In this document: piece by piece, positions 12,072 to 28,510 of the stretch
How positions within the stretch are numbered: the stretch's first letter is position 1
How the letters are laid out: each line of letters opens with the position of its first letter
Source: Prevotella sp.
GTDB lineage: Bacteria > Bacteroidota > Bacteroidia > Bacteroidales > Dysgonomonadaceae
Length of the DNA: 35,708 bases
Assembly (NCBI GenBank): GCA_031273295.1
Contig: JAISSD010000296.1
Coordinates: 1 to 35,708 of the forward strand
Direction: 5' to 3'
Translations under genes and position numbers: made by a program
Notes under the pieces: model-generated
What the model was told of the DNA's origin: nothing
Database searches by the model: none
The model's input: only the letters and a program-made list of their open reading frames with translations

Positions 12072-12175
12072 GTGCATACAATTTGTTTTTTACGGTCATA
12101 AGGAACTTGCAACATATTGGCTCCGCCGAGCGTTGTTTCATGCTTTTTGGCGCGACTTTTGCATGTCCGTTTCAT
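12072..12175 (-). repeat. Leader cassette, copy 1 (before namZ1)
   Basis: A 104-nt unit that starts ATGAAACGGACATGCAAAAG and runs to the base before the namZ1 ATG. It is aligned without gaps to copies 2 and 4 over the first 74 nt (12102-12175). It contains a 35-codon frame (first residues MKRTCKSRAKKHET) whose TGA overlaps the namZ ATG as ATGA. It begins 9 bases after the ampG stop. Confidence 0.9.
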
Positions 12176-12184
12176 GGTTGTTTT

Positions 12185-14053
12185 TTATTGATCTTCCGGT
12201 TCTCCGGCTTTTTCCGCTTTAGCTTTTCCGTAGTCGGGGTCGATCTTCAATAGCGATACGGCGACAATCGGAATAACGCTGCATATCATTACCCAGATAA
12301 AGAAATGGTTATATCCCAGTTGTTCCTGTAACCATCCTGCAAACATGCCCGGCAGCATCATTCCGGCGGCCATCAGGCCTGTACAGAACGCATAGTGGGC
12401 CGTTTTATGTTTTCCTTCCGAGAAATACATCAGGTAAAGCATGTAGGCGGTGAATCCGAAACCGTAACCAAACTGTTCTATGAACACGCATATATTGATC
12501 ACAAGCAAGTTGTCGGTTTGCGAGAAACTAAGGTATAAAAATGTGGCTATGGTGAGCAACATGCTTAAAGTCATGGGCCACAACCACTTTTTCAGGCCGC
12601 CTTTAGCTGCGGTCAATCCTCCGATGATTCCGCCGAGAGTAAGCCCGATGATCCCTACCGTACCGTATACCAGTCCGACTTCGCCTGTGGTAAGCCCGAT
12701 TCCTCCCGCATTTTTCGGGTCCAGGAGAAACGGATTTATCAGTTTGATAACCTGCGCTTCCGAAAACCGGAATGCGAGCATGAAAAATATGGCCGGCCAT
12801 ACTTGCGGTTTCTTGAAAAAAGCGGCGAAGGTGATACCGAATTCCCGGAATATGGATTTTGCGGTTACATGAGTATGCGGTTTGTCCGAATCCGGCTTTG
12901 GCAACATGACTTTATGATAAAAACCAAAGAAGATGAACAGGCCGGCCAGTACAAGGAAAGTTATCGACCATGCAAACGGGATGTTGCCCGATAGCCCCTT
13001 GTATTCGACAGAGCTGTCCGTAACCAGTTTCGAATCGACCTGAAATACCATGCAGGCAGGTTTGTTCCAGTTGTTTTCATTGAAAGACAAATGGTCTCCC
13101 TGTATCAGGGCGATGCTTTTATCTCCCCGGTTCATGGTTGTGTTCAGTATCATTTCCTTGCCATGCTCCGGCCGCTTCGACAATCTTACTACGGCAACGG
13201 AGACATTGCCCGCTTGCTCCGTTTGCTCGACATTCCTTTCCTCTCCGAATGTGTTTTTTATCCAGCCGCCGAAAGGCCCGGATATATTTGTTTTCCACCA
13301 TCCGTCGCCGTCTTTTTTGATATTCTCGTCTTTTGTCACAAAACCGTTGTTCAGATTCAACAGGGATATGCTGTCGAGGAATATTTTCAGGCTGTCTTTG
13401 TTGACGCCATGCGTCCCGATTTGCAGTTTGTCGTTGTATACAACAAAGCGGATCTCTCCATCCTGCGGCGCCATATCCTGAATTTGAGGTATATACAATG
13501 TGGATTGGGCGTATCGCGGAGAAGCCTCTATGTTTATCTTTACAGGCTCGCAACCTGTGCCGCTTTCGAGAAGTCCGGCCAGTATGATCAGTATTCCCTG
13601 CCCGAAGACAGTGGCAATGCGATAAAAGGTGCTTCTTATGCCTACATACCTGGCCTGCTGATTTGTATCCAACCCCAGCATATAAAAACCGTCGGCTGCA
13701 ATGTCATGTGTGGCCGAGCTGAATGCCAACAAGGCAAAGATTGCCAATGTGGCCTGAAAGAAAAAAGGGACGGGTATGGTGAATGCGATACCGGCAAAAC
13801 CGGCTCCGACAAGCAACTGCATGGTCACAATCCACCAGCGTTTGGTCTTTAATAGATCGACAAACGGGCTCCACAGGAACTTGATCACCCAGGGGAGATA
13901 CAGCCAGCTGGTATACAGGGCTATATCCGTATTCGATATACCCATCCGTTTGTACATAATGATGGATATCGTCTGCACGGCGACGTATGGTAATCCTTCG
14001 GCCAGATAGAGCGTAGGAATCCATGCCCACGGCGATTTCTTTTTTTCTTTCAT
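12185..14053 (-). CDS. ampG: AmpG-like MFS muropeptide permease with a large periplasmic insert
   Basis: A 622-residue major-facilitator protein. The N-terminus (WIPTLYLAEGLPYVAVQ) and the AATHDIAADG-like segment SSATHDIAADGFYML are typical of AmpG, which imports GlcNAc-anhydroMurNAc or its peptides. Helices 1-5 lie within about residues 10-160, and the remaining helices start at about 359. Between them sit about 195 hydrophilic residues (164-357) that ordinary AmpG (about 490 residues) lacks. By the positive-inside reading of an N-in MFS, this insert is periplasmic. The gene lies 12 bases after the SpoIID-like gene and 9 bases before leader cassette 1. AmpG of Tannerella forsythia contributes to muropeptide salvage. 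The exact substrate here is inferred. Confidence 0.8.
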   Translation of the reverse strand: MKEKKKSPWAWIPTLYLAEGLPYVAVQTISIIMYKRMGISNTDIALYTSWLYLPWVIKFLWSPFVDLLKTKRWWIVTMQLLVGAGFAGIAFTIPVPFFFQATLAIFALLAFSSATHDIAADGFYMLGLDTNQQARYVGIRSTFYRIATVFGQGILIILAGLLESGTGCEPVKINIEASPRYAQSTLYIPQIQDMAPQDGEIRFVVYNDKLQIGTHGVNKDSLKIFLDSISLLNLNNGFVTKDENIKKDGDGWWKTNISGPFGGWIKNTFGEERNVEQTEQAGNVSVAVVRLSKRPEHGKEMILNTTMNRGDKSIALIQGDHLSFNENNWNKPACMVFQVDSKLVTDSSVEYKGLSGNIPFAWSITFLVLAGLFIFFGFYHKVMLPKPDSDKPHTHVTAKSIFREFGITFAAFFKKPQVWPAIFFMLAFRFSEAQVIKLINPFLLDPKNAGGIGLTTGEVGLVYGTVGIIGLTLGGIIGGLTAAKGGLKKWLWPMTLSMLLTIATFLYLSFSQTDNLLVINICVFIEQFGYGFGFTAYMLYLMYFSEGKHKTAHYAFCTGLMAAGMMLPGMFAGWLQEQLGYNHFFIWVMICSVIPIVAVSLLKIDPDYGKAKAEKAGEPEDQ

Positions 14054-14065
14054 TTGCTTTTCTTT

Positions 14066-15385
14066 TTAGTACAGTTTTTCAATAGTTGCGCCCACATAAT
14101 AATGCAGCAATATCCGGTTGTAGGGATAACCCTTTTCTCCCATCACCGCCGCTCCTATCTGGCACAAGCCTACGCCATGTCCCCATCCGGCGCCTGTCAA
14201 TATGAACTTATTGTCTTTTTTGTCAACGACGAACGCGGAGCTATACAAATGGGATGCGGATAAAATACGGCGGATCTCCAGTTCTTTTCCGATGGTCATT
14301 GTTTTTTTGGAACCTACGATTTTCAGTTTCACCAGCCGGCCCGACGTACCTCTTTCCACAGGTACAAGTTCCTGTATGGCGCCGAAGTCCATGCCGGAAC
14401 GCTTGAAGATCAACGCGGATATTTCTTCTTGGGAATACGCTACCTGCCAACGGTAAAAATCGCTTGTTTCCTGATCGTAATTGTTCAATACCTGTCCCAA
14501 TATTTTCTTGTCCTGCGTATTACAAAACGCGGACGGGCTTGATTTTATCCATTTTGCGGCTTCGGATTCCATCGTAAGGCAGGGGATATCCCTTGTATTT
14601 TCATCTGTGTTTTCATCATCTCTCAGCTTTGCCAGATAAGGGTATTTTATATCTTCCCAGCAATTTTGAAATTCTTCCACCACTCCGCCGCAACATTTAG
14701 AGAAGCGGGCGTCACATATTTTGCCCTCCGATCTCAATACCTGCCCTCTTGTCTCCTTTATTGCCTGCCTTACAGTCTCGATATTGGCCGATGCGCGGGT
14801 TATACCCTGGTAACGCTGGCAATGGTCGTCGGCGCATACATCGAAATTCAGATGGTCTTCACGGTCGTACCAACGGATAATTTCATCCTCCGTTTCGGTG
14901 AATGTCGTATATTTTTCTTTGCTTGCGATGATCTCCCTGTTCTTTTCTATTTGGGCCAGCAGCCAGCTCCGCGATATTACCGCATGGGCTTTCAGCAGTT
15001 CCAACGAGGCTGTGGCGCTCATTTCGGAAGATATGACGCTGGTGAGGTAGCTTTCTGTTTTGACGAGGTTGACGGCTGTGATCCCGTCATTTTCCACAAT
15101 CAATTTTAGTCCTCCCTGAAACCGCTGGTCTTCTTTTCGCTCCCAGTGGAAGTTGACGCCGATAGTCACATTTTTAAGTGTGAATGAAGCCTGTTCTTCG
15201 TCTTCGGGCATAAAGAGCAATTCCTGCCAAAGCTTGCCGTTCCAAAGGATCAGGCCGTCCCGGTATGAAACGCTGTTTTTTCCCGTAACTTCATTTTCCC
15301 GGCAGATATACTTTCTGTCGAATACGAAAGTTATTTCTTTATTCCATAAAATGCCTACGCTTATTTCCGGTTCCATGTTTTTCAC
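14066..15385 (-). CDS. SpoIID/LytB-type peptidoglycan lytic transglycosylase-like protein, no signal peptide
   Basis: A 439-residue protein of the SpoIID family, whose members cut denuded peptidoglycan strands or stimulate amidases. The conserved core is seen in SYLTSVISSEMSATASLELL, where Glu121 matches the SpoIID catalytic Glu. KAHAVISRSWLL, CGGVVEEF and the C-terminal GAGWGHGVGLCQIGAAVMG follow. The N-terminus (MKNMEPEISVGILW) has no hydrophobic stretch, so the protein appears cytoplasmic unless the start is misread. No better upstream start exists because its ATG overlaps the DUF4922 stop by 4 bases. It is cotranscribed with ampG and DUF4922. Confidence 0.85.
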   Translation of the reverse strand: MKNMEPEISVGILWNKEITFVFDRKYICRENEVTGKNSVSYRDGLILWNGKLWQELLFMPEDEEQASFTLKNVTIGVNFHWERKEDQRFQGGLKLIVENDGITAVNLVKTESYLTSVISSEMSATASLELLKAHAVISRSWLLAQIEKNREIIASKEKYTTFTETEDEIIRWYDREDHLNFDVCADDHCQRYQGITRASANIETVRQAIKETRGQVLRSEGKICDARFSKCCGGVVEEFQNCWEDIKYPYLAKLRDDENTDENTRDIPCLTMESEAAKWIKSSPSAFCNTQDKKILGQVLNNYDQETSDFYRWQVAYSQEEISALIFKRSGMDFGAIQELVPVERGTSGRLVKLKIVGSKKTMTIGKELEIRRILSASHLYSSAFVVDKKDNKFILTGAGWGHGVGLCQIGAAVMGEKGYPYNRILLHYYVGATIEKLY

Positions 15386-16320
15386 AGATTTATTATTTTG
15401 TTAATGACAGCTTGCATTTTTTTGTCGCCGATACATATTTCTTTCAGTATGGCTTCAATATCTTTTGCGGTTATTTTACGATAGTCTTTTTCCAAAGGCA
15501 TGATAAATACTCCGCCCAGATCCACTGCGGCCGGGCTGATGAGCAGGTTGTCGTCTCCTTCGGCGAAGAAACATGCCGGACGATGTTTTTCACGGGGGAA
15601 TATACAACTGTAATACCTGTTCCCTTCGTACCAGGTCAGGACATTCATCATGGGTTCTTCATCTCCTTCTTTCCAATCCGGCAGAGCGCAAAGTTTCTTG
15701 AAAAAAAACACGGCGTCGTCTTTGTTTGTCGCCTCCAGCAGGAAAGAATTACGAAGATATTCTTTTATGGCATATACGGTTAATCCGTCCGACTTGTAAA
15801 TCTCTTCTTTCGCTATATATCTTATCTCTTTTTCGACAGGTAGAAAAGCTTTTATCCCTGCCTGAAAGTGAACGTGGTCGGGTGCGGACGCGCCGCACTT
15901 CGGACCATTGTAAAATATGGTATATTCCTCAAGACTTTTTGCCAAATCAAGCATATCGCCGTACCTGTCCAATATCGATTGGTCTGCATGCCTGTATGCC
16001 GGTATGGTGAAATGTTCGGGAAAAACGGGATAAGGGTTGACCAATACCTGATAGCCGGCGCCAAACGGGATCCCCTTTTGTTCAGACGGCAGGTTTTGCG
16101 GGCACAGGAAACATTTTCTTTCCTGAATGGACTTTGCGTCTACTTTTGCCGCAGAAGACTGAATGCGCGCAGGATTGAACTGCACCCTGACGGAAAAATT
16201 ACCGAACGAAAAATTTTTGGATTGAACGCCCTTGAGAGCATCAAAATTACTCCTTGCTAAAGGCCACTCGTTCAGCTGCGTGCAGAGTAGTTTTTTTATA
16301 TCTTTCGAAGTTAAATTCAT
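15382..16320 (-). CDS. DUF4922 protein, GalT/Ap4A-phosphorylase-like nucleotidyltransferase
   Basis: A 312-residue cytoplasmic protein recognised as the DUF4922 family. A probable metal site is CFLCP (Cys70, Cys73), with PEHFTIP (His103) and a downstream NGPKCGASAPDHVHFQAG segment. The HVHFQ sequence (His149, His151, Gln153) has the HxHxQ pattern of the GalT/histidine-triad superfamily, in which the second His takes up the nucleotidyl group. The family relation to GDP-hexose or Ap4A phosphorylases is established knowledge, but the substrate in Bacteroidales is not known to me. Coupling to the SpoIID-like gene (4-base overlap) and the murT-murK-murQ operon suggests a sugar-phosphate or nucleotide-sugar linked to wall recycling. 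That is inference. Confidence 0.75.
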   Translation of the reverse strand: MNLTSKDIKKLLCTQLNEWPLARSNFDALKGVQSKNFSFGNFSVRVQFNPARIQSSAAKVDAKSIQERKCFLCPQNLPSEQKGIPFGAGYQVLVNPYPVFPEHFTIPAYRHADQSILDRYGDMLDLAKSLEEYTIFYNGPKCGASAPDHVHFQAGIKAFLPVEKEIRYIAKEEIYKSDGLTVYAIKEYLRNSFLLEATNKDDAVFFFKKLCALPDWKEGDEEPMMNVLTWYEGNRYYSCIFPREKHRPACFFAEGDDNLLISPAAVDLGGVFIMPLEKDYRKITAKDIEAILKEICIGDKKMQAVINKIINL

Positions 16321-16337
16321 TCTTTTTCAGAGGGCGT

Positions 16338-17801
16338 TTAATTTCGATTGCTTTTGTTCAACGCAATACGGGCTTCAATTTCCCATGTGCGGATCCTGTC
16401 TTTATATGTATTGTGCGCATTCGTCTTCACTATATCCAGCGCGGCGTCGGAGTTGTCGTCCCAACGACGGCACAGGTACAGAACATCGTAGATGCGCCCT
16501 ATCCGATACTCCCGCGAGAAATACAAGCCCAGTGCGTAATCTTCTCCATAACTGGTATTCGGTACTTTGATTTCCCTCAATACAGGGGTATAGAATGCGC
16601 GCGGCGCGCCCAACCCGTTGATGCGAAGCGCATTATTCCGTCCATTGTCGGGAGTCCATTCCTTGTGGTCGATAATGCCCGGCGGTATCATCTTCATATC
16701 GAAGCCGGTAAGCATATATGCGCCTACTACCATCGCGCAATTTTGCTCGTAAAAGGCGTCTACTATTTTCTGCAATGAATTTTCGTCCGAATATACATCG
16801 TCGCTGTCGAGCTGCACTGCAAATTTTCCACATTCGGGATGATGTACGCCGGCATTCCAGCAACCGCCTATTCCCAGCTCTTTATTTTCGGGTATGATGT
16901 GTATCAACCGTTTATCGGATGCGAATTTATCGATGGCTTCCGTTGTGCCGTCGGTAGAATAGTTGTCGATGACAATGAGGTTGAATTTAAAATTCGTTTT
17001 TTGGTTCAGAACCGATTTTATGGCGTCGGCAATTGTCCTGATACGGTTGCGGACAGGAATGATAACAGAGGCTTCGTATTCAAAATTGTCGCGATCGAAC
17101 TCAACCTTCCTGAATCGGGGAGCAAGGTAAGCGCCGATTTTTTTCAGATGTCCGGTACAAACCTGTTCCATTTCGATCTGCATATCCCGGTTTTTAGGAT
17201 CCACATAGTCGAATATTTTTTCGCCGCTTTTGCGTGTGTCGTTCTCTATCTCGGTGTACAGGTATTCATTGATATGCACAGGGTCGGCAATGCGGGATAT
17301 TGCCAGCCGCAGATCGTACAGTCCTGCGAATTTGTATTCTTTATCCATGCCGGATACGGCCTTTTTCAACGCGTCGGATCTATATAGCAGTACCGAACCG
17401 AAATTGAAATCATCCCGCAAACTGCCTTTTTGATATGCGATGAGCGGATTGTTTTTCTTTTCTTCGCCAACAATCTGATAATGGTCGGCATATGCAAAGC
17501 CGGCTCCCGAGTCTTCAATTATTTGCAACATGCGGTCGAGCGCGAACATACCCGGGCGAAGAGCGGCAGACCTGGTGTAGATCAATGTGTATCCGGTATC
17601 GGATCTTGCCGCAATTTTTTTTATTGTAGCGGTCGAGTATAAAGAGTCTATATTTATTGTTTCACAGCCGCTTACAGTTTCTTTACAGTCATTACCGGCC
17701 AGCAAATAGATCTTGTTTGTCAATGGCGACCGTTTCAATGAAACGATTGTGCTTTTTGCCTGTCCGGCGCTTTTAAAAAGTATAAAACAATTGATCTTCA
17801 T
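16338..17801 (-). CDS. Tandem GT2-type glycosyltransferase
   Basis: A 487-residue protein. The C-terminal half (about 235-460) is a canonical GT-A family 2 domain, with EASVIIPVRNRIRTIADAI, VIDNYSTDGT, AVQLDSDD (metal and nucleotide-sugar site near residue 331) and an acceptor-side SYGEDYALG. The N-terminal half (about 1-200) resembles a second GT-A unit. It has TGYTLIYTRSAAL, FAYADHYQIV and FNFGSVLLYR but no clear DxD, so it may be degenerate. No signal or membrane segment. The start lies directly after leader cassette 2, and the gene is 17 bases before DUF4922. A glycosyltransferase inside a wall-salvage operon is unexpected, and donor and acceptor cannot be read from the sequence. Confidence 0.75.
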   Translation of the reverse strand: MKINCFILFKSAGQAKSTIVSLKRSPLTNKIYLLAGNDCKETVSGCETINIDSLYSTATIKKIAARSDTGYTLIYTRSAALRPGMFALDRMLQIIEDSGAGFAYADHYQIVGEEKKNNPLIAYQKGSLRDDFNFGSVLLYRSDALKKAVSGMDKEYKFAGLYDLRLAISRIADPVHINEYLYTEIENDTRKSGEKIFDYVDPKNRDMQIEMEQVCTGHLKKIGAYLAPRFRKVEFDRDNFEYEASVIIPVRNRIRTIADAIKSVLNQKTNFKFNLIVIDNYSTDGTTEAIDKFASDKRLIHIIPENKELGIGGCWNAGVHHPECGKFAVQLDSDDVYSDENSLQKIVDAFYEQNCAMVVGAYMLTGFDMKMIPPGIIDHKEWTPDNGRNNALRINGLGAPRAFYTPVLREIKVPNTSYGEDYALGLYFSREYRIGRIYDVLYLCRRWDDNSDAALDIVKTNAHNTYKDRIRTWEIEARIALNKSNRN

Positions 17802-17906
17802 GTGTCTATAATTTGTTTTTTAATGTTTGCATGGAACTTGCAACATATTGGCTCTGCCGAACATTGTTTCATGTTCTTTGGCGCTGGTTTTGCCTGCCCG
17901 TTTCAT
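17802..17906 (-). repeat. Leader cassette, copy 2 (before the GT2 gene)
   Basis: A 105-nt unit beginning ATGAAACGGGCAGGCAAAAC and ending at the base before the GT2 ATG. Its first ATG overlaps the symporter TGA as ATGA (17903-17906). The small frame has 28 residues, begins MKRAGKTSAKEHET and stops at 17820. Gapless alignment with copies 1 and 4 over 74 nt (17833-17906). Confidence 0.9.
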
Positions 17907-19402
17907 TTCAAGTCTGCTTGTTTTGGTTTGTTTTCTATTGCCGCAATTTGTTTGTTTTTCCGGATAAGTACCAGCAATCCGGTAAATGTAAGGATTGCAT
18001 TTATGATCAGTATTTCGTAACTGAATTTATATCCGTTGAACCACGCTTCGGAATTTTTATCCAATACAAAACAAATAACCGGAGCCGATACCGCCACCAG
18101 AGGTATGTATTTATCCCTGATACTTTTTTTGGTAAAGATACCGAAAGCAAACAGTCCGAGTATAGGCCCGTAAGTATAGCTTGCCAAAATATACACGGCG
18201 TCGATAACGGATGTATTGTTTAGCAGGTTTATCGCTATAATGACCAGCCCCATTACCACGGCCATGCCCGCATGTACTTTTTGGCGGATATAGGCTATGT
18301 CTTTTTCCGTTTTCCCTTTTTTGGTGCTTTCCAGTATGTCTACAGTAAAAGAGGTGGTAAGTGCGGTGAGCGCGGAGCCGGCCGCGGCATACGCAGCCGA
18401 TATAAGTCCTATTATAAACAATATGGACACAATTAACGGGAAATATCCGTTTGTGGCAAGCAAGGGAAACAATTCGTCGCTTTTTGCCGGAATGGCCACG
18501 TTATTCCGGTAGGCAAACGTATAAAGCAATACGCCCAGCATCAAAAACAGCGAAATGATGAATAATTGCAGTACGCCGCTTATTATCATGTTTTTCTGGG
18601 AATCTTTGTGGTTTTTGCAACTCATGTTTTTTTGCATCATATCCTGGTCCAGTCCTGTGGTTGCAATGACGGTGAATATCCCGGCCAAAAATTGTTTGAA
18701 GAAAAACTGCCTGTCATTGATATCGTCGAAAAAGAAAGTCCTGGAATACTCGTGATTGCCGATTGCCGACAGCATTCCGGAAAAATCAAAGCCCAGATTC
18801 GAGGCTATGCAGTATATGCACAAACCAATGGAAACGATCAGGCAAAAGGTTTTGAGCGAATCTGTCCAGATCAGCGACTTTACTCCTCCCCGGAATGTAT
18901 ATAGCCATACCAGTCCTACGGTGAATACTACATTCAGGATGAAAGGAAGTTGCAGCGGATCGAAAACCAGCAGTTGCAATACGATGCATACCAAAAATAA
19001 ACGGACGGCCGCTCCCAGCATTTTCGATATGAAGAAGAACCATGCCCCTGTTTTATAGGATGCGATACCGAAGCGGTTTTGCAGATATTCATAGATAGAG
19101 GTCAGGTTCATCCTGTAGAATAACGGAATAAGCACGAATGCAATGATCAGTTGGCCGACAACAAATCCCAAGACCATTTGCAGGTATGAAAATCCGGCGC
19201 CGGCAACCATTCCGGGCACGGAAACGAATGTGACCCCGGATATTGCGGAGCCGATCATTGCAAAAGCCACAACATACCATGGAGACTTTCGGTTCCCGGT
19301 GAAAAATCCCTGATTGTCCGCTTTACGTCCCGTAATATAGGATATTACAAATAGTACGGTGAAGTAAAGAACAATGGTTAGCAATACTGAAACAGGACTC
19401 AT
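17903..19402 (-). CDS. Sodium:solute symporter (SSS/SLC5 family)
   Basis: A 499-residue membrane protein with about 13 hydrophobic helices of the SSF family. The start VLLTIVLYFTVLFVISYITG and the segment SAISGVTFVSVPGMV, followed by YEYLQNRFG, are typical. Members use the Na+ gradient to import sugars, sialic acids, amino acids or vitamins. Position 35 bases after namZ2 in the salvage operon suggests MurNAc, an anhydro-sugar or another amino sugar as substrate, but specificity cannot be read from sequence. If so, it would be a third inner-membrane carrier beside MurT and AmpG. The stop overlaps the first ATG of cassette 2. Confidence 0.85.
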   Translation of the reverse strand: MSPVSVLLTIVLYFTVLFVISYITGRKADNQGFFTGNRKSPWYVVAFAMIGSAISGVTFVSVPGMVAGAGFSYLQMVLGFVVGQLIIAFVLIPLFYRMNLTSIYEYLQNRFGIASYKTGAWFFFISKMLGAAVRLFLVCIVLQLLVFDPLQLPFILNVVFTVGLVWLYTFRGGVKSLIWTDSLKTFCLIVSIGLCIYCIASNLGFDFSGMLSAIGNHEYSRTFFFDDINDRQFFFKQFLAGIFTVIATTGLDQDMMQKNMSCKNHKDSQKNMIISGVLQLFIISLFLMLGVLLYTFAYRNNVAIPAKSDELFPLLATNGYFPLIVSILFIIGLISAAYAAAGSALTALTTSFTVDILESTKKGKTEKDIAYIRQKVHAGMAVVMGLVIIAINLLNNTSVIDAVYILASYTYGPILGLFAFGIFTKKSIRDKYIPLVAVSAPVICFVLDKNSEAWFNGYKFSYEILIINAILTFTGLLVLIRKNKQIAAIENKPKQADLK

Positions 19403-19437
19403 AATTGGTTATCTATTGATTGTTATGTATTTGTATT

Positions 19438-20604
19438 TCATTCCGCGTATAAAAGATAGGGTTTGCGTTGTTGCTTGAATTTTTCCACATCGCTTTTCCA
19501 CATTTCCTTGATCTCTGTCGCGGACTTTCCATCCCTAATCATTTTGCGAATATAATCCACTCCCGCCAGCTTTTCAAAAAAAGGCGTAAAAAAACCGTCT
19601 CCCATATTCAGGTTATTGTAAGCGTCTATTATGTAGGAAAGATCAAATCCCCGTCTGAATATTTCTTCATCGGGTATCTCCCTTAAATCCACGCCGTGGC
19701 ACAGTCTGTTGAGAAGCGGAGGATTTTTTGCTCCGGCTATACTTTCCGGAGTGAAATCGAACGTACATCCTTTCATGTCGGGGTGACCGTATACCTGAAA
19801 CGGAAATGCGGTTCCCCTGCCTAAACTGGCCACTGTCCCTTCGAATAAACAAGTTGAAGGATACAGATATATGGATTTCATATTCGGCAGATTGGGAGAA
19901 GGCGTTATCGGCAGTTGGTACATTGTTTTGTGTGTGTAATTCTTGCATTTTATGATCGTCAGATCGCATGTCCTGTTGTCGGGCAACCAGCGCTCTCCGT
20001 TTATCATCATTGCCAGTTCGCCCAATGTCATGCCATGTACCACAGGTATCGGCAACCATCCTACTCCCGACTTGTGCTTCATGTCCAGTATGGGGCCGTC
20101 TACATAGTGTCCGTTAGGATTGGGGCGATCCAGTACTATAACCTTTTTGCCGTATTCGGCGCATGCGTCCATAAGTTTCGCCATGGTTATGTAATAGGTA
20201 TAGAACCGCAAACCTACATCCTGTATGTCTATTACAAGTATATCGAAGAGATCCATGGATCCTTTTCCCGGTTTCCGGTCTTTGCCGTCATATAGCGATT
20301 TGATTGGAATACCTGTTTTTCCGTCCACAGAGCCCGGCACATGCTCCCCGGCGTCGGCGTTTCCTCTAAAACCATGTTCAGGTGAAAATATGGCAACTGC
20401 TTTTATGTCTTTTTCCACCAGTATATCCACCAGATGTCTGTCATTTATCATTCCTGTGTGGTTTGACATGATGGCGACGTTTTTATTTTTCAACATTGGC
20501 AGGTATTCGTCGATTGATTCCGCGCCTGCCTTTGTTCGCCCGTCTTGAGAGTAAACAAAAAGAACTGCCGTTAACAGGACGAGAATGTGTACTAATCTTT
20601 TCAT
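19438..20604 (-). CDS. namZ: Exo-beta-N-acetylmuramidase NamZ, GH171 (DUF1343), second paralogue
   Basis: A 388-residue secreted GH171 enzyme with a Sec signal (MKRLVHILVLLTAVLFVYSQ). Motifs are FSPEHGFRGNADAGEHV with Glu76, DIQDVGLRFYTYY and VLDRPNPNGHY, then TPSPNLPN and LGRGTAFPF. It has the same fold and size as the paralogue at 10842-12071 but is clearly diverged, so the two may differ in chain length, peptide tolerance or location. It is the first gene of the minus-strand operon. Cassette copy 3 and a hairpin lie in its leader. Start: the only ATG giving an intact signal peptide. Confidence 0.92.
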   Translation of the reverse strand: MKRLVHILVLLTAVLFVYSQDGRTKAGAESIDEYLPMLKNKNVAIMSNHTGMINDRHLVDILVEKDIKAVAIFSPEHGFRGNADAGEHVPGSVDGKTGIPIKSLYDGKDRKPGKGSMDLFDILVIDIQDVGLRFYTYYITMAKLMDACAEYGKKVIVLDRPNPNGHYVDGPILDMKHKSGVGWLPIPVVHGMTLGELAMMINGERWLPDNRTCDLTIIKCKNYTHKTMYQLPITPSPNLPNMKSIYLYPSTCLFEGTVASLGRGTAFPFQVYGHPDMKGCTFDFTPESIAGAKNPPLLNRLCHGVDLREIPDEEIFRRGFDLSYIIDAYNNLNMGDGFFTPFFEKLAGVDYIRKMIRDGKSATEIKEMWKSDVEKFKQQRKPYLLYAE

Positions 20605-20799
20605 AAGATAATAATTTTGTTTTCAATTGACATATTGAACTTGCATGATTTTTATTATCACGGACTTTGGTAATTTGACAAAAATCATGCTTCGTTTCAT
20701 GCGTATATATTGTTTTTTTATGGTCATGACTTGCAACATATTGGCTCCGCCGAACCTTGTTTCATGCTCTTTGGCGCAACTATTGCATGCTTGTTTCAT
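20605..20799 (-). repeat. Leader cassette, copy 3, with a partial second copy and hairpin (before namZ2)
   Basis: The first 71 nt (20729-20799) match the other copies, beginning ATGAAACAAGCATGCAATAG. After 99 nt a second ATGAAACG appears, followed by a hairpin (20643-20690). The end resembles the last third of the cassette (CAAGTTCAATATG then AAACAAAATTATTA), up to the namZ2 ATG. The frame from 20799 runs 58 residues to a TGA at 20623. I read this as one complete unit plus a deleted or interrupted second one. Confidence 0.75.
20643..20690. repeat. Perfect 11-bp inverted repeat in the namZ2 leader
   Basis: GCATGATTTTT (20643-20653) and AAAAATCATGC (20680-20690) are exact reverse complements with 26 bases between them. 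The element interrupts the partial second cassette. It could be an operator, a hairpin in the leader RNA, or the ends of a tiny inserted element. Confidence 0.7.
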
Positions 20800-20872
20800 G
20801 GCGTACCTGTTCACTTGATTATTTAACCATAAAGATTATCTGATCCGCGGTTTTTTTCAATGATTTACAAGA

Positions 20873-20880
20873 CAAATATA
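20873..20880 (-). promoter_or_regulatory. Candidate -7 box for the minus-strand salvage operon
   Basis: TATATTTG on the minus strand fits TAnnTTTG exactly and lies about 270 bases before the namZ2 ATG, upstream of cassette copy 3. There is no clear -33 TTTG. In such AT-rich DNA a chance match is likely enough to keep confidence low. Confidence 0.3.
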
Positions 20881-21315
20881 AGATGATATATTTAAATAAA
20901 TATATTTGAATATCGGTAAAATCTTTATATTAACAATTATTTGTGGTTGTATACAATTATTTAGGATAATAGCGTTGTTGTTTCTCTTCGATTTTGCTAT
21001 TCTTCCGCGTATTTTGTTTTTTCGGCTTCCTGTCTGTGTTTTGTTCGTTTTTCTTGTACATTTGTATGTGTGAAATATATTGAAAATATTTATGTAAACG
21101 CTAAAATATATATTTATCAGTATCTTTGTATGCGACATAGCTGTTTTTCAACATTGACTTCAAGTGTTTATCATCTTTGCTTTTATATTAAAATATATGT
21201 ATTATCAATAATAAACCGTAAAATAAATAAATGATTCAAAAAAGATATGCGTAAATCATTTACTTTTGTGAAAGTCATACGAAGTATTTTGATTGTAAAT
21301 TAAAAGTCTGTTTCT
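20881..21315. other. AT-rich divergent intergenic DNA
   Basis: No gene seen. On the plus strand, TATCTTTG at 21121-21128 and TACTTTTG at 21261-21268 fit the -7 consensus but lack a good -33 TTTG. Either could start a long susC leader. Otherwise the stretch is low-complexity A/T. Confidence 0.4.
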
Positions 21316-21549
21316 ATGAAAGACGTTACTTCTCATCCGGTAATACTTGTTGTTGTTCCCTTTCGCATCATATCGGCGGGAAACGGGCTTGTATCCGCAA
21401 CGGATGCTGTAACCGGAAAACTGTTATGGAAGCATAAAACGGGAAATTCATTAGTTACATTAATAAATACAGTTGTGCCGCTAAATAGCAAAGATAGTCT
21501 ATTTACCTCTAGTGAAGGAATTGCAGGTTTATTATCCTATCAAGAATAA
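21316..21549 (+). pseudogene. Fragment of a PQQ-like beta-propeller repeat protein
   Basis: A 77-residue frame containing NGLVSATDAVTGKLLWKHKT, then GNSLVTLINTVVPL and FTSSEGIAGLL. The DAxTGKLLWKHK pattern is the core of a PQQ/YWTD-type propeller blade. There is no signal peptide and only about one and a half blades are present, so this is a remnant of a longer secreted protein. The N-terminal 15 residues look unrelated to the repeat. The fragment may now lie in the untranslated leader of susC. Confidence 0.55.
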
Positions 21550-21821
21550 ATAATGAGATAGAGATGTAATATCCGAAGGCCTTATTAAAGAAGAATGTTT
21601 TGTAAAACCCTTTAAAAATTACTTATGGAAAATAATTTACTATAAACCACCTTAAATTAATCTTCGGAATCTGTTTAAATTTTTCGAGAACATGATTTTG
21701 AGATATAAAACAGCCGGTATTCAAGAAATAAAACAATGACAATGTCAAATAAAACACAAAATTTAGCGATGTATAAATTCATTTTTTCGCCTGGAAATTT
21801 GGATATTAGCTGTGTTTTGTT
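21550..21821. other. Intergenic DNA, nothing recognised
   Basis: No gene or clear signal. Short frames here have no family resemblance. Confidence 0.4.
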
Positions 21822-21848
21822 AGAGAGAGAGAGAGAGAGAGAGAGAGA
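21822..21848. repeat. (AG)13 dinucleotide microsatellite
   Basis: Twenty-seven uninterrupted bases alternate A and G, about 240 bases upstream of the susC start. Such tracts change length by slippage. A 96-residue frame across it (RERERERE) is an artefact. Confidence 0.95.
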
Positions 21849-21945
21849 CACGCTTACAGACAGAAAAAGAGGTAAATATAAGAATAAAAATAGTGAAAGG
21901 ACAAAATATTCGAAAGATATATTTTGCCCCGGATATTTATTGTCC

Positions 21946-21993
21946 AAAAGCTTTACCCGGAGTATCGGCGAATACTTCGGGCAAAGCTTTTTG
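21946..21993 (+). terminator. Strong hairpin with T-run in the susC leader (terminator or attenuator)
   Basis: AAAAGCTTT / AAAGCTTTT form a 9-bp outer stem. After one A-C mismatch an inner 10-bp stem follows (CCCGGAGTAT with ATACTTCGGG, one G-U), with a loop of about 5-6 bases. The 3' arm ends in five T residues. It reads on the plus strand about 100 bases before susC. It is either the end of an upstream transcript or a conditional attenuator of the susC operon. Confidence 0.7.
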
Positions 21994-22089
21994 TCGTTAA
22001 CGGTTAAACCTGAAATTATTGATTGAAAAATTGGCGATATGATTTGTATTTAGTTAGTAAAAAGTATCAAATTTAATAAACAAAGCAGT

Positions 22090-25000
22090 ATGGAAATCTC
22101 TAAAAAACACAGAAAAACACTGTCAAGGAAGATTCTTTGTTTGTTGGTTGTTGGACTGGTATGCTCGTCTATGGGAAGTAGCTATGCGGGCGATACGGAT
22201 TCAGCCTCCGGCGGTATCATGGAGCAACAACAGGCAAAGATCACAATTAAAGGAAAAGTTTTGGATTCGAGTGGCGAACCTCTGACAGGAGTGAGCGTCT
22301 CGGTCAAAGGGACGACACAGGGAACGCTCAGTGACGCGGATGGGAATTATACCATTCTGGCGCCAGCGGGAGCAACTCTGTATTTTTCTTTTATCGGATT
22401 TGAACCTCAATCTATCGCGATAGGTTCTAAAACTACTATCAATGTGACATTAGCCGATAATGTGAAGGAACTCGCGGAAGTAGAAATCGTTGCCGAATTC
22501 GGTTTGAAACGTGTAGCGCGCTCCATGGGATCTTCCGTGCAGAACGTGAAAGCTTCCGACATCATCGAGTCGGGTCGCGATAATTTCGTGTCTGCATTGC
22601 AGGGCCGTGTGTCGGGGATGAACGTAGTATCCAGCGGCGGTGCGCCCGGCGCTTCTACAACCGTTACATTGCGCAGTATTACTTCCCTTTCGGGAAACAA
22701 TCAGCCGCTTTATGTTGTAGACGGTATCCCGATGAACAATTCATCTTTCAGCGCCTACAACTCTTTTGCCAAAGCGGATGCTTATTCTTCACGCGATTTG
22801 GACTTTTCATCGCGTGGCAATGACTTCAATCCCGAAGATATAGAATCGGTGACCGTGCTGAAAGGCGCCGCCGCCGCGGCTCTTTACGGATCGAACGCTT
22901 CCAATGGAGCCATTATTATTACCACAAAGAAAGGAACAAGCGGCAAGGGAAAGGTATCGTACAGCAATACATTCCGCTGGGACAATTCGTATGGGATTCC
23001 CGAATCGCAGACGAAATATGCGAACGGGGCATACGGGGCTACAAGTTATTACAATATTGCCCGTTTCGGAGGACTTTATCCCGAAGGCACGCAGTTTTAC
23101 GACAATGTAAATTCTATCTTGCAAACAGGCGTTACGCAGCGGCATAATTTATCCGTAGAAGCAGGGACGGATAAGACCTCGATCCGTGCGGCAGCCTCCT
23201 ATACTGATCAGACAGGTACGGTAAAGACTACCGCATATACGCGGACAAATGTTTCGTTGTCGGGCAAGGCAGAGATAACCAAATGGCTGAACGTCGAATC
23301 TTCCATGCAGTATGCGTCTACTACAAACAACAAAGTGAGAAAAGGCGCCTCCAGTCCGCTTTATTATGCGGTACGCTGGCCCGTGATCGACAATATGTCG
23401 AATTATCTCGCTCCCGTCCCTAATGAGGGCCACATGCGTTATCCGGAAAGATATGTCGATACGGATATGATCAATCCGTTTTTTTCCATGAATAAAAACA
23501 AGTATTACGACGAATCGGACCGTATTATCGGCAATGCGGCGGCAATTATCACACCGACCAAAAATACATTCGTCCGTGCGCAGTACGGTTGGGATCTCGG
23601 CGCGCAGACCTTCGAGGCGTCGGAGCATCCTTATTTTGCAAGCAATAATTACAATAGAGCGCCGGGCATAGGTGGTACGTACAATATATCGAAAGATAAT
23701 TTTATGGATCAGTCGCTGAATATTATTGCGGGCTGGAATGACAATTTTTTGGATAACAAGTTGACTTTGTCGGCCCAATTCGGTTATCACCAGCAGGAAA
23801 ATAAAGTGGCGCGCCTGTCTACTTATGGAGCGAATTTTTCCATTGCGGATTTTCAGTCTATCAACAATACTGACGTGGCTACCATCACCTCTGCGAAAAG
23901 AGCGACTAAACGGCGTATACAGGCTTTTTCGGGACAAATAGAAGCCGGCTACAACAATCTGGCTTTTCTTACATTGCGTGCACGCAACGACTGGGCCTCC
24001 ACATTACCGGCCGATAGCAGGGTGTTTTTTTATCCGGCGGCGGAAGTTGCATTTGTTGCATCGGAATTACCGTTTATGAAGAGCGCGACTAGCGTAATGA
24101 ATTTCCTGAAACTCCGGGGAGCGGTAGCGCAGGTAGGTAAAGACACGGATCCTATTTCTATCAATCCGGAACTTGAACGGACCGAATTGACGGGCGGTGG
24201 TTTTAAATATGGATTTACCGGTCCGAATCCTGATTTGAAGCCGGAAATGACTACGTCTTGGGAGGCTGGTTTTGAAGGCCGTTTTTTGAACGACCGGATT
24301 AACGCCGACTTTACGTATTTCAGTACCCGTTGCGCCGATCAGATCGTAAAAAATTACCGCATGAGTTATGCATCAGGATTCGTATTGAATACCCGTAATA
24401 TGGGTGATTTCAAAACATGGGGCTGGGAAAGTCATATCGATGGCAACATTATTGACCAGCGGGATTTACGATGGAATGTCGGAGTAAACTTGTCGCATAC
24501 AGGTTCCGAAACAACCAGCCTGCCGTCTGGAGAGTATTATGAAACCTATACGAATGGTAATACGGCAGGTATCCGCCTCGGCACAATGGTGGGAGCTCCT
24601 GTAACAGCGATTACCGGGAATGATTTTCAGCGGAACAACAAAGGGGAAGTTTTGATAGACCCTGCTTCCGGGCTTCCGCTTACTTCCGACAAGTGGACTA
24701 TATTGGGAGACCGCGAACCAAAATTGCGTTTTGGTTTTAATACAGCCGTTAGTTATAAAGCATTCCGTTTGTCTGCCATGTTTGCAGGAAAATATAAAAG
24801 CACGGTTATAAACGGAACAATGAGGTATATGATGCAGAATGGTATGAGTTGGGAGTCTGTGGCCAAGCGTGAACAGGGTCCGGTTGTATTCAGCGGGGTG
24901 GTAAAAGACGGTAACGAAAATACCGATCATCCGACCATAAATACCATATCGGTAACTTATGGCAGCGCCGGTACTACTACGCAATATGCGGGAGCCGCTC

Positions 25001-25284
25001 CGGACTGGATCGAGAAGAATATCAATTATGTCCGGTTGCAGGAATTGCGTCTTTCGTATACGATTCCGGCCAAGTTGTTGAAACAGTATTCCAATGGGCT
25101 TATCAGTTATGCAAATGTTTACGTTGCAGGAAACGACTTGTTTACTCTGACTAATTATACAGGTATCGACGCGGTGGGTAATACAATATCTGCGTCTTCC
25201 GGCGGTGTAGGCGGGGAAGGTTACGATACATGGGCGTTGCCGAATCCGCGTGGCCTTTCGTGTGGAGTCAGTCTGACATTCTAA
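22090..25284 (+). CDS. susC: SusC/RagA-family TonB-dependent outer-membrane transporter
   Basis: A 1064-residue outer-membrane importer. The signal peptide lies within residues 1-34 (KILCLLVVGLVCSSMG, cleavage near YAG). A carboxypeptidase-D-regulatory-like domain follows at about 48-130 (KGKVLDSSGEPLTGVSV), then the TonB plug (LQGRVSGMNVV, NQPLYVVDGIPM, VLKGAAAAALYGSNASNGAI) and a 22-strand barrel. The end is NPRGLSCGVSLTF with the terminal Phe usual for barrels. It works with the SusD lipoprotein encoded 26 bases downstream to take up oligomers at the cell surface. Divergent linkage to NamZ/Mur genes and cooperation with amidase and glycosidases point to peptidoglycan fragments. This is inference. 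Confidence 0.93.
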   Translation: MEISKKHRKTLSRKILCLLVVGLVCSSMGSSYAGDTDSASGGIMEQQQAKITIKGKVLDSSGEPLTGVSVSVKGTTQGTLSDADGNYTILAPAGATLYFSFIGFEPQSIAIGSKTTINVTLADNVKELAEVEIVAEFGLKRVARSMGSSVQNVKASDIIESGRDNFVSALQGRVSGMNVVSSGGAPGASTTVTLRSITSLSGNNQPLYVVDGIPMNNSSFSAYNSFAKADAYSSRDLDFSSRGNDFNPEDIESVTVLKGAAAAALYGSNASNGAIIITTKKGTSGKGKVSYSNTFRWDNSYGIPESQTKYANGAYGATSYYNIARFGGLYPEGTQFYDNVNSILQTGVTQRHNLSVEAGTDKTSIRAAASYTDQTGTVKTTAYTRTNVSLSGKAEITKWLNVESSMQYASTTNNKVRKGASSPLYYAVRWPVIDNMSNYLAPVPNEGHMRYPERYVDTDMINPFFSMNKNKYYDESDRIIGNAAAIITPTKNTFVRAQYGWDLGAQTFEASEHPYFASNNYNRAPGIGGTYNISKDNFMDQSLNIIAGWNDNFLDNKLTLSAQFGYHQQENKVARLSTYGANFSIADFQSINNTDVATITSAKRATKRRIQAFSGQIEAGYNNLAFLTLRARNDWASTLPADSRVFFYPAAEVAFVASELPFMKSATSVMNFLKLRGAVAQVGKDTDPISINPELERTELTGGGFKYGFTGPNPDLKPEMTTSWEAGFEGRFLNDRINADFTYFSTRCADQIVKNYRMSYASGFVLNTRNMGDFKTWGWESHIDGNIIDQRDLRWNVGVNLSHTGSETTSLPSGEYYETYTNGNTAGIRLGTMVGAPVTAITGNDFQRNNKGEVLIDPASGLPLTSDKWTILGDREPKLRFGFNTAVSYKAFRLSAMFAGKYKSTVINGTMRYMMQNGMSWESVAKREQGPVVFSGVVKDGNENTDHPTINTISVTYGSAGTTTQYAGAAPDWIEKNINYVRLQELRLSYTIPAKLLKQYSNGLISYANVYVAGNDLFTLTNYTGIDAVGNTISASSGGVGGEGYDTWALPNPRGLSCGVSLTF

Positions 25285-25310
25285 ATTTAAAATACTAAAA
25301 AACATTGAAT

Positions 25311-27215
25311 ATGAAAAATTTAACTATAATATCATTGTTATCCATGCTGCTGGTATTCAATACCGGATGCGAGGATTACCTGGATGTCAATAAAAATATA
25401 GACTCGCCGGATTATGTAGATGACTACGTATACCTGTCGGGTATTTTGCAGGCTTATCAGGATCGGTATAACGATATACTTTTTATTGCGCCGATGATCG
25501 AGATGTTCGGAGTAACAGCCACGAAAAATGCGAGTTATGCGAATCATTATTATGTACCGGCTGACGATGCCGGCGCTTTGATCTGGCGTACGGTATACTG
25601 GAACCAGGGGATGAATCTGGAGAATATGATCAATCAGGCTATGGCCGAAGAACGCTGGACGCTTGTCGGTATTGGCTATGCCGTGAAAGCATATAGCTGG
25701 GATATGTTGACAAAAATATACGGTGAAGTACCTATGAAACAGGCCTTGACTTACGATAAGCGGACGACGTTCGATTATGATTCCCAGGAGGAGGTTTATA
25801 CGCAGGTACGTGTTTGGGCGCGTGAAGCCGTCAAATATCTGGAAATGGAGGATAAAACGGTTTACGGCAGTGTAATATCCACTAACGATTGGATTTACAA
25901 AGGCGATAAGGATAAATGGAAAAAATTCGCTTATGCGGTGATTGTTAGAAATCTGTCTTCTTTGTCGAACAAAACGGATTTTACCGCGAAATATGCCGAT
26001 GAATTGATTGATGCGGCAGGCAAGTCGTTCCAAAGTATTGCCGACGACGCTACGGTAGCGATAGCCGGCGGATCCCAAAGCGTGCCCTATACCGGATACA
26101 ACAATTTTTGGGGAACTGCCAGAGGAAATTTGACTACAACCACTTTCCAACACGACTATGCCGTGCAAGTGATGACAGGTACAGTACCTAAATATCAATC
26201 GGACGGACAAAGAGCGGATGTTGAGAAACCTGCCAATCCCTATTATCCGTGGCAACTGATGGATGATCAGATTATCTGTGATACTGCAAAAACAGTAACA
26301 GGCCATTATGATCCGCGGGTAGTTGCAAAACTAAGCTCGACTACCAATCTGTATGACTATATCGATAATGCCGACAGCGTAAAGACCTACAAGTATTATG
26401 GAGGGCGCAATTCCACAAGCCGGACCAATCCTGTCGATTCAAAAGATGTGCCTCATCTTTACGGGCGTGTCGGAACCGTCCAGAATGGAACAATGGCACA
26501 GCCGAACGATGGCAAAGGACGCTGGCTGTACCGCGACGATGCGCCTTATATATTGACGACTTATGCCGAAATAAAATTCTGTCTGGCCGAAGCTTATTTG
26601 AAAAAGGGGCAACAAGATCTGGCTTATACGGCTTTTAAAGAAGCAGTGAAAGCCGATCTTGCTTTCACCGCCAAATACCTTTCGCCGGGCGTCAAGGGAC
26701 AGCAGGTAGGCGGTGATAAAGTGACCGTGCCCGTTTTCAATACGCTGGCGGATGAATATGCAAACGGCCCTTATGTTGACGGACTGGGACAGGATAACCT
26801 GACGCTTTCGCATGTCATGATGCAAAAATGGGTATCCCTGTATCCGTGGGGCGCCATAGAGGCCTGGGTAGATATGCGCAAATACCATTACGATATCCAA
26901 TACACAGGCGGCTATCCGACAAAAGGCAATGGATGGGAGGCCGACCGGAAAATAGACCAGAAAAACGATAATGATCCGTCTAAAGTATACAAAGGATTTT
27001 ATCTGGGCGCCGCACGTAATATAGAATTCCGTAATGCGGTCTATGATATTAACAATGATGGTTCTCCTTGTTACCGCATACGTCCGCGTTACAATTCCGA
27101 ATATGTGTGGAACATACCGTCTCTCGAAAAATTGAAACCTATTGCGGGGACTGCTCCGAACTACCAGTGTTCCATACCTTGGTTTGCTTATCCGGGTGAT
27201 TATCCGTCTAAATAG
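25311..27215 (+). CDS. susD: SusD-like surface lipoprotein (SusD/RagB superfamily)
   Basis: 634 residues from the ATG at 25311, which gives a lipoprotein signal ending FNTGC with the Cys near residue 20. An ATG two codons earlier is the alternative. EDYLDVNKNIDSPDYV followed by helical TPR-like segments (ENMINQAMAEERW, GIGYAVKAYSWDMLTKIYGEVPM) is typical of the SusD-like_2 branch. The C-terminal IPWFAYPGDYPSK is typical as well. It caps SusC and binds the ligand on the outside of the cell. Close spacing to susC indicates one transcript. Confidence 0.9.
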   Translation: MKNLTIISLLSMLLVFNTGCEDYLDVNKNIDSPDYVDDYVYLSGILQAYQDRYNDILFIAPMIEMFGVTATKNASYANHYYVPADDAGALIWRTVYWNQGMNLENMINQAMAEERWTLVGIGYAVKAYSWDMLTKIYGEVPMKQALTYDKRTTFDYDSQEEVYTQVRVWAREAVKYLEMEDKTVYGSVISTNDWIYKGDKDKWKKFAYAVIVRNLSSLSNKTDFTAKYADELIDAAGKSFQSIADDATVAIAGGSQSVPYTGYNNFWGTARGNLTTTTFQHDYAVQVMTGTVPKYQSDGQRADVEKPANPYYPWQLMDDQIICDTAKTVTGHYDPRVVAKLSSTTNLYDYIDNADSVKTYKYYGGRNSTSRTNPVDSKDVPHLYGRVGTVQNGTMAQPNDGKGRWLYRDDAPYILTTYAEIKFCLAEAYLKKGQQDLAYTAFKEAVKADLAFTAKYLSPGVKGQQVGGDKVTVPVFNTLADEYANGPYVDGLGQDNLTLSHVMMQKWVSLYPWGAIEAWVDMRKYHYDIQYTGGYPTKGNGWEADRKIDQKNDNDPSKVYKGFYLGAARNIEFRNAVYDINNDGSPCYRIRPRYNSEYVWNIPSLEKLKPIAGTAPNYQCSIPWFAYPGDYPSK

Positions 27216-27243
27216 ACATTAATTTATCTAAAAAATAAAAGAT

Positions 27244-28191
27244 ATGAAAATTATTAAGTATATAAGCATATTCCTGTTGGCGGCCTTTGTTTCCGTTTCC
27301 TGTTCAAAAGAGGATATTGAATATGGCGGCGCCGTACCGTTGACCGATGAAGCGGAATTTCAGTTACATTATATGGTTCCTGTAACAACTGCCAGTACGA
27401 ACGATATTTTCAAAGTGGATTTGAATGGCAAAACGATTACAAATAATACGACGCCGCTGTCGGTTTACAATGTTGTGCCTACTTCGATAGGCCGTTTCTT
27501 CACGACAAAGGCGGGAACGGTGAATTTGAAGTTATATCAAAGTACTGATTTGAACCTGATATACGACAAGGCGGTAACGCTCGGCTCGGGGAAGCAGAAT
27601 GTTGTCGTTTACGATTTTGACAAACCGCCGGTTGTTTTCGATAACGGTTATCCTTACCCTTATCCAAACGACCATACGTCTTATGATACGGATACCATAG
27701 CGTATGTCAAATTCTATAACTTTATGTATGATTCGCCGGGGGTAGCGACTACATTGAAGATACAATATCAGTACCAGTATACATTGCACCCGCTCTATAC
27801 GCTGGACGATGAAGCCAAAGGAAAGATACCGTCAGGAAAGAAAGTAGGCGATGCGACGGGCGATGCGACACTGAGCGCATGGCTTAATCTGGGCAAAGCG
27901 GTAGGTTTCGGTGAAACGACCGGCTGGCAAGTTATTCCGGTAAAGAAGGCAACCTATGTTAGCCAGGGCGCGGCGCGTTTAGATTACCGGGTTATAGTTA
28001 CGGCTGAAAACGGCGGTATACCGGGCGTAAACGTGGTGGACGACGGTACATGGCGGCTGATAAGAGGAAGTGGTACGGCCACATATGCTGACTATTGGAC
28101 CGCAACAATCGGACGCAGGTATCATCATTTTTTCAGGGGACACCGTACTGTAGCGCCATTAATTGATATCAGTCAAAAAGAGGCGCTCTAA
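27244..28191 (+). CDS. SusE/F-position surface lipoprotein, unknown family
   Basis: A 315-residue lipoprotein with signal MKIIKYISIFLLAAF and lipobox VSC (Cys20). The mature part is beta-rich with no clear enzymatic motif. Segments such as VNLKLYQSTDLNLIYDKAV and VVYDFDKPPVVFDNGYPYPY suggest one or two Ig-like or DUF4397-type sandwich domains. The position directly after susCD is that of surface glycan-binding proteins, so ligand binding at the cell surface is likely. Family and ligand are not established here. It is followed by a strong terminator, so it probably closes the susC transcript. Confidence 0.75.
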   Translation: MKIIKYISIFLLAAFVSVSCSKEDIEYGGAVPLTDEAEFQLHYMVPVTTASTNDIFKVDLNGKTITNNTTPLSVYNVVPTSIGRFFTTKAGTVNLKLYQSTDLNLIYDKAVTLGSGKQNVVVYDFDKPPVVFDNGYPYPYPNDHTSYDTDTIAYVKFYNFMYDSPGVATTLKIQYQYQYTLHPLYTLDDEAKGKIPSGKKVGDATGDATLSAWLNLGKAVGFGETTGWQVIPVKKATYVSQGAARLDYRVIVTAENGGIPGVNVVDDGTWRLIRGSGTATYADYWTATIGRRYHHFFRGHRTVAPLIDISQKEAL

Positions 28192-28230
28192 CAGAACTAA
28201 AGCATCCGAAAATGCTATGTTATAAATAAG

Positions 28231-28270
28231 AAAAGGAGGCATTTTTATATTTCGGCCTCCTTTTCTTTTC
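28231..28270 (+). terminator. Intrinsic terminator of the susC operon
   Basis: AAAAGGAGGC (28231-28240) and GCCTCCTTTT (28255-28264) form a perfect 10-bp stem with a 14-base loop. TTTTCTTTTC follows, 40 bases after the lipoprotein stop. Confidence 0.9.
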
Positions 28271-28308
28271 TCAAATGGGATTTGGAAAGTTACAGTATGG
28301 GAAGTTAG

Positions 28309-28375
28309 CGCTTTTTCATTACAGGTTGTGGCTATTGCCGCGTACAGCGACCGGTTAAGCCGAACCTGAAAAGCG
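28309..28375 (+). ncRNA. Candidate structured leader RNA before cassette copy 4
   Basis: Nested stems are CGCTTTT/AAAAGCG (28309-28315 with 28369-28375), CAGGTT/AACCTG (28322-28327 with 28363-28368), GGCT/AGCC (28330-28333 with 28358-28361), and a possible CCG/CGG. The stems stack on the 3' side with one 6-base bulge. It lies between the susC-operon terminator and the GHL10 gene, so it may be part of that gene's leader. I match it to no known riboswitch. Confidence 0.3.
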
Positions 28376-28405
28376 AGTATGGATAAAAGATTGAATTTTG
28401 GATAT

Positions 28406-28510
28406 ATGAAACGGGTATGCAAAACTTGCGCCAAAGAGCATGAAACAATGTCTGGCGGAGCCAATATGCTACGAGTTCCTTGTCGCCATTTAAAAACAAA
28501 TTATGTACAC
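28406..28510 (+). repeat. Leader cassette, copy 4 (before the GHL10 gene)
   Basis: A 105-nt unit beginning ATGAAACGGGTATGCAAAAC and ending at the base before the GHL10 ATG. The first 74 nt (28406-28479) align without gaps to copies 1 and 2. Here the small frame (MKRVCKTCAKEHET and following) stays open and runs in frame into the GHL10 gene, while in copies 1 and 2 it ends at or before the start codon. Confidence 0.9.

Follow-up and report, generated by a model that had tools for sequence, protein, structure and literature searches.

The stretch analysed here (the window) is a contig of 35,708 nucleotides from a Prevotella sp. of the order Bacteroidales (GenBank assembly GCA_031273295.1, contig JAISSD010000296.1), one of the 312 contigs of a 4.17 Mb genome. 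It contains an operon of ten minus-strand genes, running from 20604 to 7956, and four places at which a short repeat supplies the start codon of the gene that follows: two NamZ genes, a GT2 gene and a GHL10 gene (Table 1). The repeat is about 75-110 nt long, contains an ATG and ends in ATGAA. Its absence from the orthologous sites of relatives indicates that it is mobile, and we consider it probable that its copies are non-autonomous elements mobilized through single-strand chemistry in the manner of IS200/IS605 derivatives.

Four type A copies, with a pairwise identity of 79-85%, are the window's only blastn matches at E < 0.01. Each points the same way as the gene after it, which bears out an initial annotation of this DNA that had reported four copies, all sharing the direction of the gene they precede. 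That annotation was also right that the two copies inside the operon occupy the only gaps above 50 bases among the ten genes, as judged from the list of open reading frames (ORFs). It erred in letting the cassette stop at the ATG, which is part of the element, and in treating copy 3 as a rearranged form. Copy 3 is a tandem of an A element and a second type, B, the latter sitting at the terminal ATGAA of the former, and 12 such A-to-B pairs occur in the host sequence sampled below. At copy 2, the upstream SSF gene (17903-19402) still has its TGA stop within the left ATGAA, and the right ATGAA opens GT2. Both NamZ (exo-beta-N-acetylmuramidase) genes share one operon, with elements supplying both starts.

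Table 1. Elements, flanking pentamers and following genes in the window.
Feature	Coordinates	Strand	Remark
Type A copy 1	12067-12170	-	Terminal ATGAA (12071-12067) is the NamZ start; site empty in relatives
Left pentamer ATGAA of copy 1	12171-12175	-	Read as target, former NamZ start; relative L149 has ...CAATAAAAAACAATCAACA/ATGAAAAAAGTA
Type A copy 2	17797-17901	-	Terminal ATGAA (17801-17797) is the GT2 start
Left pentamer ATGAA of copy 2	17902-17906	-	Site empty in relatives
Type A element of copy 3, first in tandem pair	20696-20794	-	
Left pentamer ATGAA and target of that A element	20795-20799	-	
Type B element, second in tandem pair, at A's terminal ATGAA	20600-20695	-	Own terminal ATGAA (20604-20600) is the second NamZ start; relatives empty
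Type A copy 4	28411-28515	+	Terminal ATGAA (28511-28515) is the GHL10 start; no relative placed for copy 4
Left pentamer ATGAA of copy 4	28406-28410	+	Read as target
NamZ gene after copy 1	10842-12071	-	
GT2 gene after copy 2	16338-17801	-	
NamZ gene after copy 3	19438-20604	-	
GHL10 gene after copy 4	28511-30001	+	

Same-genus relatives possess the window operon, and at the junctions read they lack elements 1, 2 and the pair formed by 3 and B. In one of them (L149), the leader ...CAATAAAAAACAATCAACA continues straight into ATGAAAAAAGTA with no element between. When 77 copies were queried against 0.8 Mb of one congener (G003) and previously collected relative loci, a relative could be placed for 22. 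A native ATGAA start with no element in the upstream bases read was found in 21 of these, the 22nd being a poor match.

The host sample from which the family was characterized comprises 1,168,505 bases in 90 stretches, mostly picked for holding matches and amounting to 28% of the genome. It contains 147 elements, 108 of type A and 39 of type B. Searched against the whole genome, the A query gives at least 46 matches (best 40 of 127 candidates scored) and the B query at least 40 (best 40 of 64 candidates scored). The right-end motif AAANAAATTATNNNCRCATGAA, allowing two mismatches, matches 138 times in the host as opposed to twice for its reversed control, so the family extends beyond chance. 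Compared with the B element of the window, B copies show 86-98% identity. Such elements lie at the ends of six host contigs (C98, C70, C4, C127, C233 and C248), and the assembly was probably broken by them, as young repeats would do. B is also inserted in a further repeat around CAATCCTGTAATCCTTTAATCC...TTCAGACAG, seen in C49, C65, C169, C256, C97, C258 and other contigs. A scan of the sampled sequence for unpaired end motifs gave no convincing longer, gene-carrying version.

Placement was assessed for 139 elements, the other eight being cut at the 3' end. With respect to the initial annotation's association with gene starts the outcome is mixed: among the 103 single copies that could be resolved, a called start lies at the end of 63, while 35 are in non-coding sequence away from a called start and five are in coding sequence. 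The remaining elements are followed by another element (24), lack a right ATGAA (6) or lie near the end of a stretch (6). Control ATGAA sites outside elements (n = 4142) fall at starts in 363 cases, in non-coding sequence in 923 and in coding sequence in 2856. The share of starts among start and non-coding placements is thus 63/98 for elements and 363/1286 for control sites, but gene calling was simple and missed some genes, and we claim no true excess. For comparison with the 21 of 22 placed relatives that start with ATGAA, this pentamer opens 307 of 875 called host genes. The right pentamer of the element is ATGAA in 133 of 139 cases; the left pentamer is ATGAA in 91, TTGAA in seven, ATGGA in seven and CTGAA in four, with others making up the rest apart from 13 undetermined. 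A native ATGGA target was considered for the seven and rejected, as the two with a placed relative (e52 and e90) have an ATGAA start in that relative; these pentamers are probably later changes.

Target duplication, as by a classical DNA transposon derivative (a miniature inverted-repeat transposable element, MITE) that duplicates ATGAA, was at first favoured for the ATGAA found on both sides of most copies. Most targets are identical to the element end, so only unusual targets separate models with and without duplication. Among the matches listed for 112 joined-flank queries are empty paralogous sites of this kind. In contig C49, the left flank ...CAATCAGGAA (AGGAA) is followed by the element, ...CATATGAA (right pentamer ATGAA) and then AATCCTG, while the empty paralogue in C169 reads ...CAATCAGGAAAATCCTG, that is, CAATCAGGAA/AATCCTG, with no gap relative to C49 at the joint. 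Similarly, the copy in C154 (left TTGAA) aligns gap-free across the joint with an empty site in C7 (TTGAG), GTTTTGAG/AATTC. Two further copies with an unusual left pentamer, in C258 and C65 (CTGAA), resemble their own unoccupied paralogues. In another Bacteroidales genome (G052), a copy splits a Y1 gene and has TTGAA on its left and AAGAA on its right, and a homologue in G166 is uninterrupted there.

The AGGAA and TTGAG/TTGAA empty sites hold a single copy of the target, and in the Y1-gene copy the two pentamers differ. These sites imply that no duplication occurred there and that the right pentamer is borne by the element; as far as the compared sequences go, the target is the pentamer on the left, and the ATGAA on the right is the element's own. 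A target-duplicating transposon derivative is accordingly very unlikely. Of the three options offered by the initial annotation, a MITE-like inserter at gene starts nevertheless came closest: the element is mobile, absent from the orthologous sites of congeners and often located at ATGAA starts. It is not a classical MITE, because the empty sites exclude target duplication and the ends are direct rather than inverted repeats.

The A query has matches in five of 41 relatives counting the host, the other four being partial only, and B-like copies occur in the congeners G001, G003, G008, G009 and G020. The broader right-end motif (up to two mismatches) is found in 125 of 295 genomes of the order, although genomes with only one to three matches may owe them to chance. 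It is most frequent in the host (105), G166 (72), G081 (42), G295 (32) and G052 (29), as against 0-2 per strand in controls. A stricter exact pattern had no match in 394 other genomes drawn from the whole phylum, a set with just five members of the same order. In the genome_contigs collection it identified at least 80 loci, including Prolixibacteraceae, Marinilabiliaceae, Dysgonamonadaceae and Paludibacter assemblies; A-like and B-like copies are among those of Dysgonamonadaceae (L262, L271, L303 and L270). The exact B hairpin had no match in this collection. The element pattern also occurs towards the end of one viral contig, IMGVR_UViG_3300033562_001108 (L426, 185-227), in what is possibly host-derived sequence.

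From the 80 genome_contigs loci, 84 elements could be read. They follow the plan ACGA-X...X'-GAGTTYCATNNG-(A-rich, AAAACAAATTAT)-CNNATGAA, many letters of which are fixed by the search pattern itself, whereas the NN bases are free. Interiors vary by clade, down to bare hairpins (L308 and L317), with the frame ACGA-X...X'-GAGTTYCATNNG...AAAACAAATTAT...CNNATGAA remaining constant. A left arm is present in 70 of the 84 elements, 61 of which have ATGAA ahead of it. Folds of 75 elements give two adjacent hairpins, the first of which (HP1) has at least four pairs in 59. The second (HP2) involves the start codon: the NN after the internal CAT is complementary to the NN before the ATG at 156 of 168 positions, with both positions complementary in 73 elements. 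Shuffling the partners gave a mean of 68, and 156 was reached in 0 of 20000 shuffles; sliding the partner by 1-4 bases left 21-69 of 168 complementary. The match also holds within the 13 of 43 assemblies that contain more than one type (45 elements; 83/90, compared with 66.9 when shuffled and 0/20000). Therefore, by co-variation, the bases before the ATG and the internal segment are predicted to form a start-codon hairpin in other Bacteroidales. The internal segment TTYCAT is able to pair with ends of the ATGAA type apart from a single constant mismatch, at which position two of the 84 pair. The folds, with two adjacent hairpins able to form together, led us to abandon an early idea of alternate pairing between the internal segment and the two ends, left and right.

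The element might have been retained because its hairpins, of which HP2 contains the start codon, regulate translation of the next gene; it would then be a portable translational leader, another option of the initial annotation. In effect this is partly so, since the element provides the start codon together with the bases ahead of it, and the hairpin around the ATG co-varies. In 45 of the 75 folds the internal segment is the pairing partner of the start codon; in 20 the codon is paired otherwise, and in only 10 is it free. Of the 84 elements, 68 lead into an ORF of 60 codons or more, compared with 613 of 2317 control ATGAA sites. The copy-by-copy HP2 match is, however, lost in the host A family, evidence against a regulatory role being maintained there. 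Pairing is retained in 12 of 16 copies without a following ORF and in 61 of 68 with one, a small difference that leaves a DNA and an RNA role undecided. Moreover, one copy lies inside a Y1 gene and others in non-coding DNA, and the relatives' orthologues manage without the element. At the gathering score, Rfam has no match in the window and matches only a tRNA in the 80 loci, in 18 of them. We regard retention for such regulation as unlikely. The third option, an RNA-processing site, found nothing in its favour, including no Rfam match to the element. The Bacteroidetes -7 promoter motif is TAnnTTTG, and none was seen on the sense strand, by eye only.

The initial annotation had also noted a small frame (MKRxCK...), and a peptide could in principle be the repeat's product, as the left ATG opens a frame that is 28 codons long in 14 of 87 end-complete A copies and 25 codons long in 19 of 31 B copies. 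The frame is not conserved. Indels scatter its length (among the A copies, 19 codons in 13 and 35 codons in nine), the left ATG is missing from 10 A and five B copies, and interiors differ between clades and can shrink to a bare hairpin. A peptide product is thus extremely improbable.

REP-like repeats mobilized by Bacteroidetes RAYT (TnpA-REP) enzymes were considered, such genes being present in the host and several high-copy genomes. In addition, Bacteroidetes subclass 2.6 is reported to lie between atypical secondary structures, further copies of which occur in other parts of the genome (PMC6006769). The RAYT genes inspected, however, have other palindromes in their flanks: the host RAYT-like genes L045 and L046 (in C242 and C126) have their own, CTGCCTTTCAGGCAG and CAGGTCGCTGACCTGCGG, a separate repeat family. 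With one G052 RAYT as query, tblastn found no match at 1e-5 in any of the 80 genome_contigs loci. A RAYT mobilizer had been prompted by weak PF01797 matches near the motif in G052, and was rejected on finding that the element is actually inside the Y1 gene. Element copies interrupt Y1 (RAYT-like) genes at three G052 loci, L234, L236 and L238 (about 1362-1455 in L238). Overall, RAYT-driven movement appears quite unlikely.

We prefer a single-strand route. In this reading, the element inserts in a fixed orientation, immediately 3' of a pentamer that is usually ATGAA, does not duplicate it and ends in its own ATGAA, which replaces the displaced gene start. On landing at ATGAA/A at the start of a gene, the old start would stay ahead of the element and the new ATGAA would fall in exact register; insertion would therefore be nearly harmless and the sense orientation automatic. 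Mobilization would presumably occur in trans, by an HUH/Y1-like single-strand transposase reading both hairpins as in IS200/IS605. The ATGAA target and harmlessness can be enough to account for placement at starts, though there may be a preference for start contexts beyond them. A more far-reaching idea, possible but doubtful, is a mobile class adapted to start codons, in which the co-varying hairpin with start and leader is both transposition end and portable translational switch. If true, insertions would rewire the translation of many genes without breaking them.

Several observations weigh against transposition of the IS200/IS605 kind. No mobilizing enzyme was found: PF01797 has no match in the high-copy genomes G280 and G295, and a motif scan of the host's four PF01797 loci found no element ends. 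PF01797 is no marker of the element in any case, occurring in 204 of 295 genomes of the order. Because most left pentamers equal the element end, the argument against duplication draws on a few unusual sites. HP1 comes from a search that selects for pairing and counts for less than HP2, and 14 of 84 elements have no left arm. Guide sequences of the IS608 type were not demonstrated. Finally, all 24 tandem pairs in the host sample begin with A (12 A-A, 12 A-B, none with B first), a constant order for which a bare ATGAA target does not account.

A repeat that lands on start codons and replaces them in many Bacteroidales calls for a different annotation of gene starts and 5' leaders in these bacteria. 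It is also a natural example of a parasite that does no harm because it provides what it displaces. As native leaders are separated from their start codons at dozens of genes in one genome, the effect on translation is directly testable. A literature search found no description of the element, subscription journals being largely outside its coverage.

Similar to bacterial MITEs, such as that of Porphyromonas gingivalis, the element is small, repeated and non-autonomous, but its ends carry ATGAA in the same direction, its inverted match is internal and the informative sites lack a target duplication. It shares with REP/RAYT repeats a short, high-copy, palindromic and non-autonomous nature and single-strand folding, yet it is longer, has two adjacent hairpins and is not linked to RAYT genes, those seen having other palindromes. 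No GT[AG]G tetranucleotide was seen, by eye only, at the foot of the hairpin in the element consensus; this motif is reported to be absent or atypical in the Bacteroidetes RAYT subclass (PMC6006769). Compared with IS200/IS605 members such as IS608 and ISDra2, the element, at about 100 nt, has no transposase gene and no linked enzyme, and its end motif doubles as a start codon. IS608 inserts 3' of TTAC, retains TTAC in its left flank, and uses end hairpins and guides (PMC5934647). The element resembles this group in that it inserts 3' of a short fixed motif, which is kept in the left flank, in a fixed orientation and with no duplication at the few informative empty sites (C49/C169 and C154/C7). 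Further likenesses are hairpins near both ends (HP2 by co-variation, HP1 by folds) and, at the 3' end of the element itself, a motif like a cleavage site that resembles the target.

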